The notes under the pieces are model-generated. The model had not been told where the DNA came from, ran no database searches, and saw only the letters and a program-made list of their open reading frames with translations. Positions 31,179 through 41,318 of a stretch of 64,000 nt of DNA are shown piece after piece. The stretch lies in contig DASXUQ010000005.1 of the NCBI GenBank assembly GCA_036504735.1, positions 589,377-653,376 on the forward strand, given 5' to 3'. The position numbers and the translations under genes are program-made. This DNA is from a bacterium (lineage in GTDB: Bacteria; Electryoneota; RPQS01). The number at the start of each line of letters is the position of its first letter. The stretch's first letter is position 1.

Positions 31179-33866
31179 ATGACCTCCAAAGAAATCCGCC
31201 AACAGTTCCTCGAGTTCTTCCGCGAACGCGGCCACACCATCGTTCCTTCCGCCTCCGTGGTTCCGCAGGACGACCCTACGTTGCTTTTTACCAACGCGGG
31301 CATGAACCAGTTCAAGCCTATTTTTCTCGGCCGCGTCAAGCCGGACTACACCCGCGCCGCGGACACGCAGAAGTGCATCCGCGTCTCCGGCAAGCACAAC
31401 GATCTCGAAGAGGTCGGTCCGTCGCCTTACCATCATACGTTTTTCGAGATGCTGGGCAACTGGAGTTTCGGCGACTACTTCAAGAAGGATGCGATTGTCT
31501 GGGCCTGGGATCTGATCACACGCGTGTATGGCATGCCCAAGGACAAGCTTTACGCCACCGTCTACGAGACCGATGATGAGGCCGAAGCGCTGTGGAAGAG
31601 CGAGACCGATATTATTCCGTCGCACGTGCTGCGCTACGGCAAGAAGGACAATTTCTGGACGATGGGCGACACCGGCCCCTGCGGCCCGTGCAGCGAACTG
31701 CACATCGACCGTGGCCCGTCCTTCGATTCCGATCCGAACGCGTTCGTCAACACCGGCTCGCCGCGCTACATCGAACTGTGGAATCTGGTCTTCATCCAGT
31801 ATGAACTCCAGAAGGACGGCACGCTGCTTCCCCTTCCCGCCTGTCATGTGGACACCGGCGCGGGACTGGAGCGGCTGACTACGGTCATGAACGGCCTGCG
31901 TTCGAACTATGACACGGATCTTTTCCAGCCGATCATTCAGACCATTGCGCAGATGTCCGGCAGACCGTATGCCGATGATCCGAGCGGCGTGCCGCACCGG
32001 GTGATCGCTGACCACTTGCGCTGCCTGTCCTTTGCCATTGCCGACGGCGCCATGCCCGGCAACGAAGGGCGCGGCTATGTGCTGCGTCGCATTCTGCGCC
32101 GCGCGGCGCGTTTCGGGCGCAAACTCGAGATTCATGAACCGTTTATCTACAAGCTGGTACCGGTGCTGATCGATGTGATGGGCGACGTTTTCCCTGAACT
32201 CAAAGAGCGCCACCTGCACGTCACCCGCGTCATTCAGTCCGAGGAAGAGCATTTCGGCAAGACGCTGGATCGCGGCCTCGAACGCTTCGACGAAGTGGTT
32301 TCCGAGTTGCGCCAGCACAAGTCCACCATTATCCCGGGTGCGGAAGCCTTCCGCCTTTATGACACTTTTGGTTTCCCGCTCGATCTGATGCAGCTTATGG
32401 CCCGCGAGCAGGAATTAACGGTGGATGAGGCGGGATTCGAAAAGGAGATGGCGGCGCAGAAGGAGCGGGCCAGAGCGGCAGGAACGTTTAAGGCTGATGG
32501 TGGCTTCAAGAAATTCGTTTCAGAGATATATGGACCGTCCCAGTTCGTCGGATATGATCATTGGAATAGCGTTGAAGCAGATCTTCTAGGCATCGAGCCG
32601 CAGGATGTGGATGATAACTCCTTCTATCTTGTGACGGACAGAACCCCCTTCTACGCGGAATCTGGTGGACAAGTCGCCGATCGCGGATTCATTGACCTCG
32701 TTACAGATGCAGGTCTTCCAGATAGATTGGAAGTCACCGAAGTTCAGCGAATGGGACAAGCGATTGTCCATACAGTTCAGCCCGCATCGCCAGACATTAA
32801 GCAGTCGCTCGTCAGGAAGGTCCGATCCGACGACGAAACTTGGGTGAAACGCACGAAAGCTCGGCTGTCGGTGAGGCGTGAACATCGCATCCCCACTCAG
32901 TACAACCACACGGCCACGCACTTGCTGCAGGCCGCGCTCCGTGAGGCGCTGGGAACGCACGTGCATCAGACCGGCTCGCTGGTAGATCCTGACTATTTGC
33001 GCTTCGACTATTCCCACTATGAGAAGCCAACGGAAAGCGAACTGAAGCAGATCGAAGAGCGCGTCAACGAGTTCATCCGCATGAACTATCCGGTTAAGCC
33101 GCGCACTACGACCCTTGCCGAAGCTAAGGCCGCCGGTGCGATGGCGCTGTTCGGCGAGAAGTATGGCGAAGAAGTGCGGCTGGTAGAGATCGGCGAGAAT
33201 GGTCAGTACATTTCCCGCGAACTCTGCGGCGGCACGCACGTGAGCCGCACCGGCGACATCGGTGTGTTTGTGATCGAAACCGAAACCTCCGTCGCCGCGG
33301 GCATCCGGCGCATTATCGCCCTCACAGGCGAGCGCGCGCTGCGCTATCTGCTTGAACGCCGCGACAAGGTCAATGACTTCACCGGAGTGTTGCAAAGCGA
33401 AGGCAGCGACCCGCTGGACAAGCTGCGCAAGATCCTCGAAGATAAGAAAAAGCTCGAGAAGGAACTCGAGCATCTGCGCGCCCAGACGGCGGCCTCCTCC
33501 ATGCACGATCTGGCATCGAAGGCCGTATCCATCGGCAGCGCAAAACTGGTGGCCACGCAGGTGGATGCTCAGAATATGGATCAGCTCAAAGAGATCGGCG
33601 ACGCATTGCGCGAGGCACTGGGCTCGGGCGTCGGCGTGCTGCTGTCCGTATTTGACGGCAAGCCCGCGCTGGTGGTGGTGGTCACTCCCGATCTGGTCAA
33701 GTCCGGCGTGGATGCTGTGCCCATCGTCAAGGAACTCGCTAAGTTCCTGCAAGGCGGCGGCGGCGGCAAGCCGCATCTGGCCACGGCAGGCGGCAAGAAT
33801 CTCGAGGGTATCGCTGACGTGCTGGCTAACGCGCAGGACCTGGTCGGTAAATACGTCAAATCGTGA
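31179..33866 (+). CDS. alaS: Alanine--tRNA ligase
   Basis: Class II synthetase with 895 residues in the normal order: catalytic core (KPIFLGR, NTGSPRYIELWNLVFIQY, GAGLERL), tRNA-binding helices, editing domain with zinc ligands HTATH (577-581) and CGGTH (683-687), and a C-terminal DHHA1-like domain rich in Gly (LQGGGGGKPHLATAGG). The stretch at about 32480-32890 (residues about 434-571, start of the editing domain) uses clearly different codons and a lower GC than its flanks, which suggests a recombined segment. recX is 44 bases upstream. Confidence 0.98.
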   Translation: MTSKEIRQQFLEFFRERGHTIVPSASVVPQDDPTLLFTNAGMNQFKPIFLGRVKPDYTRAADTQKCIRVSGKHNDLEEVGPSPYHHTFFEMLGNWSFGDYFKKDAIVWAWDLITRVYGMPKDKLYATVYETDDEAEALWKSETDIIPSHVLRYGKKDNFWTMGDTGPCGPCSELHIDRGPSFDSDPNAFVNTGSPRYIELWNLVFIQYELQKDGTLLPLPACHVDTGAGLERLTTVMNGLRSNYDTDLFQPIIQTIAQMSGRPYADDPSGVPHRVIADHLRCLSFAIADGAMPGNEGRGYVLRRILRRAARFGRKLEIHEPFIYKLVPVLIDVMGDVFPELKERHLHVTRVIQSEEEHFGKTLDRGLERFDEVVSELRQHKSTIIPGAEAFRLYDTFGFPLDLMQLMAREQELTVDEAGFEKEMAAQKERARAAGTFKADGGFKKFVSEIYGPSQFVGYDHWNSVEADLLGIEPQDVDDNSFYLVTDRTPFYAESGGQVADRGFIDLVTDAGLPDRLEVTEVQRMGQAIVHTVQPASPDIKQSLVRKVRSDDETWVKRTKARLSVRREHRIPTQYNHTATHLLQAALREALGTHVHQTGSLVDPDYLRFDYSHYEKPTESELKQIEERVNEFIRMNYPVKPRTTTLAEAKAAGAMALFGEKYGEEVRLVEIGENGQYISRELCGGTHVSRTGDIGVFVIETETSVAAGIRRIIALTGERALRYLLERRDKVNDFTGVLQSEGSDPLDKLRKILEDKKKLEKELEHLRAQTAASSMHDLASKAVSIGSAKLVATQVDAQNMDQLKEIGDALREALGSGVGVLLSVFDGKPALVVVVTPDLVKSGVDAVPIVKELAKFLQGGGGGKPHLATAGGKNLEGIADVLANAQDLVGKYVKS

Positions 33867-33875
33867 AAATGGAAA

Positions 33876-33901
33876 AAGGGCAGCCTGATGGGGCTGCCCT
33901 T
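33876..33901 (-). terminator. Terminator between alaS and the selenocysteine peroxiredoxin
   Basis: A perfect 10-bp stem (33876-33885 with 33892-33901) with a 6-base loop. On the minus strand it runs into five T residues, so it fits the end of the peroxiredoxin gene. It may also stop alaS transcripts. Confidence 0.8.
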
Positions 33902-33929
33902 CGCTGAACTCCTGTGGTCTCCCGCTGCG

Positions 33930-34394
33930 CTACACGAGTCTGGAAAGATACGCGAGCACTTCCTCGTTGTGAACGGGAGCGGAGACCGGGTCCCAGATCT
34001 TCTCAATCCGCCCGTTGTCGTCGATCATGAACGACACACGACGCGCACGCACACTCGCTTCATCCGGTTTGTTCGCCACACCATAGGCCCGGGTTACCGT
34101 GCCGCCGGTATCGGCCAACAGCGAAAAAGGCAGCGAGTATTTCTGAGCAAAGCGTTTATGTGATTCCGGCGTATCCGTACTCACACCGAGCACGGCAATT
34201 CCCTGCGCGGCATACTGACTGATGCTGCGAGCGAAATTGACAGCTTCCAAGGTTCAGCCCGGCGTGTCGTCACGCCCGTAGAAATAAAGCAGTACGCGTT
34301 GGCCGTTGTAGTCCGGCAGACGGTGGCGCCTGCCATCACCATCCATCAGATCGAAATCCGGCGCGGGTTGGCCTTCCTGCAAATGAGTGTGCAT
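33930..34394 (-). CDS. bcp: Peroxiredoxin (BCP/PrxQ family) with selenocysteine at the peroxidatic position
   Basis: 155 codons from ATG 34394 with one in-frame UGA at codon 47 (34256-34254). Before it the frame reads MHTHLQEGQPAPDFDL...LLYFYGRDDTPG, and after it TLEAVNFARSISQYAAQG...VSTDTPESHKRF. In the BCP family this site is TPGCT, so the UGA stands exactly for the peroxidatic Cys and is read as Sec. No resolving Cys follows at the usual place, so it works as a one-Sec enzyme. A candidate SECIS hairpin lies at 34206-34229. Termination at the UGA would leave only 46 residues, and a caller starting after it would lose the active site. The gene has its own promoter (34469-34497) and terminator. 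Confidence 0.9.
34206..34229 (-). promoter_or_regulatory. Candidate SECIS element in the peroxiredoxin mRNA
   Basis: The hairpin begins 24 nt after the UGA: CGC, one A-C mismatch, GCAU, an 8-base loop, AUGC, GCG. The loop starts 32 nt after the UGA, inside the known bacterial range of about 16 to 37. The first two loop bases are C and A rather than G, so this is weaker than the SelD element. Confidence 0.5.
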
Positions 34395-34468
34395 GTTGCA
34401 TGCCCCGTTTCTAAATTCACACCATTCTTTGACTAAAAATGTTCCATTGCGCTTGCCGCATGGGGACT

Positions 34469-34497
34469 AACATAGCCACAATCCTTCAGACTTTCAA
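34469..34497 (-). promoter_or_regulatory. Promoter of the selenocysteine peroxiredoxin gene
   Basis: On the minus strand: TTGAAA (34497-34492), a 17-bp spacer, TATGTT (34474-34469), about 75 bases before the ATG. The remaining divergent gap up to gmhA (34395-34635) shows no gene. Confidence 0.65.
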
Positions 34498-34635
34498 GTC
34501 ACGGGTAGGGTCAACAGCGATGCAATTATTTCTACTTGCTTGCACTAACTTCTTCATCGTGCCTTCAGAATGAGAATCAGGAGAGGCGTCCCACTGCGCG
34601 GGACGTCATCAGAGTATTTCGGATCAGGAACTGCC

Positions 34636-35262
34636 ATGAACGAACCTCAGATTTCCGCCATCAAGAAGTCCCTTGAAACCGCCGTTCAACAGGCGGCAGA
34701 AATGCATGGCCGCATGGACGAAACCCTCCCCGCTCTTTCGGCAATTGCCCAGGCGTGCGCACAGGCGTTGCGTAGCGGGGGCACGGTCTACTTCTGCGGC
34801 AACGGAGGTTCTGCGGCGGAAAGCCAGCATCTGGCCACGGAATTTGTCGTCCGCCTCTCTTCACAGCGAAATCGCGCGGCCCTCTCCTCTATCGCCCTGA
34901 CTACCGACACCAGCCTGATTACCGCCTGCTCCAATGACCTCGGATTCGACAAGATTTACTCCCGCCAGATCGAAGCTCACCTGAAGGCCGGCGACGTGCT
35001 GATTCTCCTCTCGACCTCCGGAGCATCGCCCAATCTTCTCGAAGCCGCCAGCGCGGCGCGACACAGGCGGGGAACTGTGGCGGCGTTTGTCGGTGAAAAA
35101 CAGACACCGCTGGACAAGCTGGCCCACCACACCCTGCACATCCCCTCGCCGCACTCGCAGCGGGTACAGGAAGGTCATTTGCTGTGCGGTCATCTGCTGG
35201 TGGAAATGGTGGAAGACCTTCTGACTGAAACGCCGTCATCCGCGCCGGAAAATAGTCGATGA
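34636..35262 (+). CDS. gmhA: Sedoheptulose-7-phosphate isomerase (SIS domain)
   Basis: First step of ADP-heptose synthesis for the lipopolysaccharide core; 208 residues. It shows the SIS signature (FCGNGGSAAESQHLATEFVVR), the loop LSTSGASPNLLEA, and the C-terminal His-rich region HLLCGHLLVEMVEDLL. The ATG at 34636 has AGGA seven bases upstream; an ATG at 34570 lacks family support. The presence of this gene agrees with an outer membrane. It overlaps the next gene by ATGA. Confidence 0.93.
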   Translation: MNEPQISAIKKSLETAVQQAAEMHGRMDETLPALSAIAQACAQALRSGGTVYFCGNGGSAAESQHLATEFVVRLSSQRNRAALSSIALTTDTSLITACSNDLGFDKIYSRQIEAHLKAGDVLILLSTSGASPNLLEAASAARHRRGTVAAFVGEKQTPLDKLAHHTLHIPSPHSQRVQEGHLLCGHLLVEMVEDLLTETPSSAPENSR

Positions 35263-40268: not shown

Positions 40269-41318
40269 TTAATCGGACAGTCGAATCTTGTGCCCGGCCG
40301 TCACTGACCCCACAACCGCCGCCGCCGTGACGCCGGCCTTGTGTAATTCTTCCACCGCACTGCCCGCCTGCTTGTGCGGCAGTGCAGCCAGTAATCCACC
40401 GGAAGTCTGGGCGTCGTAGAGTAGCCACACCGTGCGTTCATCCGCGCCCACACTCTCCTCAACCAACGCTTCGTAATACCGCTTGTTGGCGAACGTCCCG
40501 CCGGGAAATTTTCCGCTCTCGGCAAGGCTCAGCGCGGCACGGTAGAACGGAAAGTCGCTCAGGCGGAATTCCATACCGACCTTCGACGCCACGGCGATTT
40601 CCGACGCATGCCCAATCAGGCCATTGCCCGTAATGTCCGTGCACGCGTGCACTTCAAAATGGGCAAGGGTCTCTGCCGCGACCTTGTTCAGGGTCTTCAT
40701 TCCCGCAATTGCATCCGTCGCCTCGGCCACAGCCACCGTTTCGTTCTTCAGCGAGGTGGTGATAATCCCCGTGCCCAGCGGCTTGGTGAGAATCAACGCG
40801 TCGCCGACCTTCGCGCCTTCATTGGTCCAGTATTTCCCGGGCTGCACGATACCTGTGACCACCAGGCCGTATTTCGGCTCCTGATCGTCGATGGTATGTC
40901 CGCCGACAATGGCAATGCCTGCTTCCATGGCCTTTTCCGCGCCGCCGCGCAGCACCGCATTCCACAGCTCCGCCGGATATTTGCGCGGAAAGCAGCAGAC
41001 GTTCAGTGCGAACAACGGACGCCCGTTCATCGCGTACACATCGCTCAGGGAATTGGCCGCGGCAATCGCGCCGTAATCGTAGGCGTCATCCACCACCGGC
41101 GTGAAAAAGTCCACCGTCTGCAGCAGCAGCTCACCTGAGGGCAGCCGGTACACCGAGGCATCATCCTTATGCGAAAACCCGACGACGAGGTTCGCATCGG
41201 GATGAACGGGAAGACCGTCGAGAATCCGATCCAGCTCCGCTGGATCCAGTTTCGACGCTCAACCCGCGCAACGCACGAGATGCGTCAGCTTAGTGAGTTC
41301 GTCTTTTGTGTACGCCAT
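40269..41318 (-). CDS. selD: Selenide, water dikinase, itself a selenoprotein (UGA at codon 20)
   Basis: Makes selenophosphate, the selenium donor for selenocysteine; 349 residues. From ATG 41318 the frame reads MAYTKDELTKLTHLVRCAG, then UGA (41261-41259), then ASKLDPAELDRILDGLP. The catalytic motif of E. coli SelD is AGCGCK; here U takes the place of Cys17 and Lys23 that of Lys20. The rest is standard (TVDFFTPVVDD, GGHTIDDQEPKYG, TKPLGTGI, DAQTSGGLLAALP). A perfect SECIS-like stem is at 41228-41246. The 5' part overlaps the end of the upstream slt gene by 29 bases. Without Sec reading, callers begin at a GTG near 41153 and miss the active site. Confidence 0.95.
41228..41246 (-). promoter_or_regulatory. 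SECIS element in the selD mRNA
   Basis: In the transcript GAUCCAGC pairs perfectly with GCUGGAUC around a GGA loop. The loop begins 20 nt after the UGA and has G at its first position, as in known bacterial SECIS elements. A further stem CGUCGA/UCGACG can form around it. Confidence 0.8.

Follow-up and report, generated by a model that had tools for sequence, protein, structure and literature searches.

A PrxQ-like peroxiredoxin gene with an in-frame UGA at the catalytic codon: a probable selenoprotein gene lacking a consensus SECIS element

The peroxiredoxin frame and its surroundings

The window, that is, the whole stretch of 64,000 nucleotides analysed here, includes on the minus strand a frame that runs from an ATG at 34394 to a TAG at 33930-33932 and consists of 154 codons for residues, with a single in-frame TGA and the rest open (Table 1). 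When the TGA is read as Cys, residues 8-132 match the Pfam AhpC-TSA domain (PF00578) with an E-value of 1.9e-37 and a score of 128.4 bits, against a cut-off of 26 bits, and the match spans the TGA without a frame shift, in full agreement with the earlier note, which had described one UGA at codon 47 flanked on both sides by PrxQ/BCP-like sequence. The relatives with solved structures are a Burkholderia AhpC/TSA protein (5enu, E 2.3e-21) and Bcp (3drn, E 4.5e-21), and the best homologue among the matches listed is 49% identical over residues 5-150. An AlphaFold model, built from a three-row alignment, has a mean pLDDT of 87.7, with 78 in the active-site block 41-50 and values below 50 at 109-116; in this model, residue 47 begins a helix (47-56) that comes after the strand 33-38. 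The first six Foldseek ranks are occupied by Bcp (ranks 1-3, Bcp and two chains of Bcp1), 5enu (ranks 4-5, two chains) and PrxQ (rank 6), with TM-scores (query) of 0.84-0.90. The AhpC-TSA domain together with the predicted PrxQ fold assigns the protein to the PrxQ/BCP (COG1225) type. None of the 12 matched NCBIfam models was at its cut-off (NF053650, 123.9 of 260; NF006960, 112.2 of 140), and because the cut-offs of the curated PrxQ equivalogs were not reached, the protein is termed PrxQ-like here, with no equivalog claim.

The table-11 ORF list contains only the downstream 106-residue piece of this gene, with a TTG start located after the catalytic residue. The 107 codons 3' of the TGA are open and show a gene-like GC content by codon position (0.60/0.45/0.65), and the genes scanned around the peroxiredoxin appear unbroken. 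Four of the five neighbouring genes checked end in TGA, so that this codon is also a normal stop in this genome. The sites near the frame that resemble a promoter and a terminator are weak evidence when judged by shuffle controls: two putative promoter sites were detected in 33800-34650 compared with a shuffle mean of 0.5, the second of them inside the end of the gene, and the terminator scan yielded one site compared with a shuffle mean of 0.8, a count not above chance. The hairpin at 33864-33902 lies 3' of the alaS stop on the plus strand, its opposite strand being the terminator-like site of the peroxiredoxin gene; on the plus strand, it imitates a SECIS behind the TGA of alaS, and the terminator scan called the minus strand only.

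Table 1. Features of the peroxiredoxin locus and selenocysteine genes of the source genome (window positions, except for those on contig C5)
Feature	Position	Strand	Basis or remark
PrxQ/BCP-like peroxiredoxin frame, 154 aa with UGA47 as Sec	33930..34394	-	homology, AlphaFold model, Foldseek
In-frame TGA, codon 47, peroxidatic Cys codon, motif TPGUT	34254..34256	-	translation and alignment
Codon 40 GGG (Gly) in place of the universal Prx proline	34275..34277	-	sequence and 65-row alignment
Stretch past the UGA where a bacterial SECIS is expected; no consensus hairpin	34200..34253	-	model test and folding
Promoter match of the sigma-70 type, TTGAAA-17-TATGTT, 5' of the ATG	34469..34497	-	consensus match only
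Terminator-like hairpin directly past the full-length frame	33875..33902	-	consensus match only
selD (selenophosphate synthetase), start inferred	about 40269..41318	-	own TGA at 41259-41261, RCAGU
SelA	C5:158702-159793		
SelB	C5:152283-154133		
tRNA-Sec	C5:141024-141117		

The active site and relatives with TGA

In an alignment of 65 rows, which is a selection of chosen loci rather than the set of all matches and in which TGA is written as Cys, the column of codon 47 is Cys or TGA in every row, so the UGA indeed falls on the reactive Cys of the TPGCT motif, as had been claimed from the sequence alone. The active-site residues Thr44 and Arg119 are also conserved in all 65 rows. Position 40, the universal peroxiredoxin proline, is Gly in this gene alone and Pro in the remaining 64 rows, so that the Txx(U) part of the PxxxTxxC/U motif is present and its proline is replaced. 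The codon GGG is two changes away from every proline codon, and therefore, Gly40 does not result from a single base error. There is no Cys anywhere in the 154-residue protein; the resolving position (+5), which is Cys in 44 of the 65 aligned rows, is Val, in line with the earlier remark that the resolving Cys is missing from its usual place. By alignment with the catalytic Cys of homologues, the in-frame UGA would mark a selenoprotein gene.

The same features bear on a technical explanation, namely, that the real codon is TGC or TGT, and the gene codes for an ordinary Cys PrxQ that acquired the TGA through an error in the assembly. A single base change would suffice for this, but an error at exactly codon 47 should be rare a priori, the protein with Cys at this position would still be an unusual PrxQ, having one Cys and Gly40, and the intact appearance of the scanned neighbour genes gives no hint of poor sequence; we regard such an error as quite improbable.

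With the peroxiredoxin as the query, a search at E 0.001 gave matches in 58 of 61 genomes and a search at E 1e-22 in 147 of 386, the source genome being included in both counts. The first search produced at least 24 other TGA-flagged rows, and all 18 of them that were examined carry the TGA in the active site; these comprise four BCP-like genes (L057, L058, L059, L064), nine AhpC-type genes with an FVU motif and five ResA/thioredoxin-like genes. Among the other TGA-flagged rows of the second search, at least seven in number, six have the TGA at the PrxQ catalytic codon (L102-L107), and the seventh (L096) has it near the C-terminus. Thus, at least 10 PrxQ-like genes, in ten other genomes, carry TGA at the same codon. 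The searches revealed no close UGA orthologue, and the 12 relatives from the family and order gave no match at E 1e-22 or better. The source genome itself has 12 PF00578 matches, with a TGA in this peroxiredoxin alone, and the only other place in it that matches the query at 1e-12 is an AhpC with the FVCPTE motif. A scan of GTDB contigs identified three confirmed relatives, all from Bacteroidota and all with Cys, and a tblastn search of plasmids returned 289 records, all with less than 60% identity; among the eight listed, seven are annotated as bcp and one is unannotated. At positions 1-435 of the window, on the plus strand, there is a second peroxiredoxin (L053), of the AhpC type, with Cys in an FVCPTE motif, which begins just before the window.

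In the tree of 65 chosen rows, 13 of them with TGA, the bootstrap of which had not settled, the Sec label needs five changes, four of these forced by well-supported branches. The branch of the peroxiredoxin is long and adjoins AhpC-type rows (87/82), and the other Sec PrxQ-like rows lie elsewhere in the tree; if the peroxiredoxin contains Sec, it looks like the product of a separate Cys-to-Sec change.

The long branch and the replacement of the universal proline by Gly are both what could be expected if a Cys PrxQ gene had recently suffered a nonsense mutation that converted its catalytic codon to a stop, with the downstream frame not yet decayed. Such a mutation, however, would have to strike precisely the codon at which Sec is known, and the 107 open downstream codons with their gene-like composition, the retention of Thr44 and Arg119 and the presence of the Sec machinery in the genome speak against it, so that a nonsense mutation appears unlikely, albeit the least so of the explanations other than Sec. 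The earlier contention that chance or error is hard to credit holds in part: the active-site location of the TGA in 18 of 18 genes examined from the first search and in six of seven from the second favours it, with some small probability to be conceded to a recent nonsense mutation or a base error.

Selenocysteine machinery and the SECIS test

The source genome (4.16 Mb, 19 contigs, 97.95% complete) encodes SelA (438 bits) and SelB (362 bits, over the cut-off), the respective cut-offs being exceeded in two of 14 control genomes each, as well as a tRNA-Sec (56.2 bits, with a gathering score of 47 that is exceeded in five of the 14 control genomes), which was confirmed by ARAGORN with the anticodon TCA. 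SelD, which is encoded within the window, scores 345 bits, over a cut-off that two of the 14 control genomes also exceed. The complete set, selA, selB, selC and selD, is therefore present in the genome, and the reading of UGA47 as Sec survives what the earlier note had put forward as its main refutation test, the absence of these genes. The selD gene, located about 6 kb from the peroxiredoxin gene, is itself a selenoprotein gene with a textbook SECIS: the RNA forms an 8-pair helix with a GGA loop 20 nt past the UGA (z -2.69; three of 200 shuffles were as good). Together, the sel genes and a selD with its own UGA and SECIS indicate that the organism very probably makes Sec. The table-11 ORF list begins selD downstream of the Sec codon, at 41153.

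A molybdopterin search of the same genome gave one partial match without TGA, and no Sec formate dehydrogenase was seen. A scan for a TGA followed by a strong hairpin, run on the window plus three other regions of this genome, returned three rows and added no accepted selenoprotein beyond SelD: the rows are SelD, the alaS stop with its trailing hairpin and one weak frame in L122.

The SECIS test was coded from the bSECIS constraints of PMC13188914, the Fig. 2 legend of which specifies a loop of 3-9 nt with G in the first two bases, 16-37 nt after the UGA, and a folding energy of -7.5 kcal/mol or lower. In the comparison set of 25 genes (SelD and the 24 genes described above with TGA at the active site), 23 pass this model, the exceptions being L059 and L104. 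After UGA47, neither a consensus bSECIS, even under looser limits with the G rule retained, nor a strict hairpin was detected, so that the check by a SECIS predictor, which had been suggested as a way to verify Sec, turned out negative. The fold of the stretch where the element is expected has a z of +1.09, with 175 of 200 shuffles folding equally well or better. Over 57 nt, the z of the peroxiredoxin is +1.18, the highest of 26, compared with negative values in 23 of the 25 comparison genes (all but L102 and L107, which are positive) and a background mean of -0.07 for 300 codons.

The test is loose, being passed by 272 of 500 random in-frame codons from eight window genes, the peroxiredoxin and selD included, and the strict hairpin is poorly specific, given that such a hairpin, at 0 kcal/mol or lower, is present for 1684 of 2842 background codons. 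With failure rates of 8% for the comparison genes, 20% for the 10 PrxQ-like ones and 46% for random codons, the failed test lowers the odds of Sec by a factor of roughly 2 to 6. When the G rule is dropped, a CAGUCAGU loop appears in a fold at +32, but this fold carries no weight because 425 of the 500 random codons also pass under this setting. Two reviews (PMC9312934, PMC13188914) note that some selenoprotein genes fall outside the bSECIS model, which leaves room for Sec here but gives no support for it.

The missing SECIS counts in favour of a nonsense mutation, a base error and a third alternative, low-level read-through of the UGA by a near-cognate tRNA (Trp or Cys), with no SelB involved and little full-length protein made. 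Read-through of this kind would also fit the downstream frame that is still open; on the other side, the version with Trp would be devoid of the catalytic residue, and the available Sec machinery offers a simpler route, which makes this alternative the least credible of the three.

Decoding of UGA47 and comparison with known Sec peroxiredoxins

The TGA occupies the single known Sec codon, the genome has the sel genes, and both flanks as well as Thr44 and Arg119 are kept; the best explanation, and a likely one, is that UGA47 is decoded as Sec in a one-Sec peroxiredoxin of the PrxQ/BCP (COG1225) type. Owing to the missing SECIS and to Gly40, Sec is not called established here. The original proposal of Sec is thus favoured by the sel genes and by homologues with TGA at the same codon, and is tempered by the lack of a SECIS and by the change of Pro to Gly, which the earlier note did not mention.

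Under the Sec reading, SelB and Sec-tRNA-Sec would decode UGA47 with the aid of a recoding element that is weak or departs from the consensus. Lying close to Thr44 and Arg119, the selenol would attack the hydroperoxide and become a selenenic acid that would then be reduced by an outside thiol, be it thioredoxin, glutaredoxin or a small thiol; an outside reductant would be needed because the chain contains no Cys or second Sec. This cycle of selenol, selenenic acid and outside thiol follows from peroxiredoxin chemistry and the absence of Cys. A more far-reaching and rather doubtful version is that Sec is inserted at UGA47 via a recoding signal of a second class, so far unrecognised, which would serve a peroxiredoxin with one Sec, no Cys and a remodelled GxxxTxxU site; a candidate for such a signal would be, for example, the longer-spaced fold with the CAGUCAGU loop 32 nt past the UGA. 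Should Sec be inserted here, the gene would extend the set of Sec peroxiredoxins by one that appears only as a fragment in a plain table-11 ORF list, and would provide a clean test case for SelB decoding of a UGA that lacks a consensus SECIS, given the strong-SECIS gene selD nearby in the same genome.

The use of Sec by some bacterial peroxiredoxins, on which the earlier note relied, is documented. The table in PMC9312934 includes Prx as COG1225 (Bcp) with TxxU, above the 'Predicted' heading; 43 Sec Prx of COG1225 are given for the Sargasso Sea in PMC1088965, 12 Sec Prx with five Cys-to-Sec changes in PMC1794560, and 253 with TxxU under pfam00578 in PMC2398784; the conserved motif is named PxxxTxxU in PMC13188914. 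The founding Sec Prx is the Eubacterium acidaminophilum enzyme (Soehling 2001, as cited in PMC9312934 and PMC13188914). With COG1225 Sec peroxiredoxins already published, this gene is most likely one more of them rather than a new kind. No paper on this gene was found in a literature search, the scope of which did not extend to GxxxTxxU peroxiredoxins.

The gene shares with the published COG1225 (Bcp) enzymes the PF00578/COG1225 relationship, the Sec (here a probable one) at the peroxidatic position and the TxxU, but differs from them in the lack of a consensus SECIS, in the Gly that replaces the PxxxTxxU proline and perhaps in the chain without Cys. The ten PrxQ-like TGA genes, six from other phyla (L102-L107) and four from the same phylum (family f7), have the TGA at the same codon and belong to the same fold family; unlike this gene, all ten keep the Pro and eight pass the SECIS model, and they are separate from it in the tree. 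The f7 genes form a BCP-like clade in which all four members carry TGA, with T[PS]GU followed by [KA][KR]QLSA, where this gene has TLEAVN; the SECIS elements of the clade are weak or odd. The Cys-containing PrxQ/BCP proteins (3drn Bcp1, Xanthomonas PrxQ) have the same fold and active-site Thr and Arg, with Cys in place of Sec and, commonly, the +5 Cys that is missing here.

The AhpC-type Sec peroxiredoxins (FVUPTE or FVUATE) of other genomes belong to the same superfamily and have the same Sec position, but possess a motif of their own; all nine such genes (L060, L061, L062, L065, L066, L068-L071) have a SECIS in which the loop, GGUC, is 17 nt past the UGA, with stem pairs that differ by gene, for example, UGACAGC/GCUGUCA and UGGCUGC/GCAGCCA. 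Four ResA-like genes with the [DN]URQCH motif (L063, L067, L072, L074) likewise have a hairpin in common, AUG[AC]GGA-GAU-UCC[GU]CAU, the loop of which is 17 nt past the UGA.
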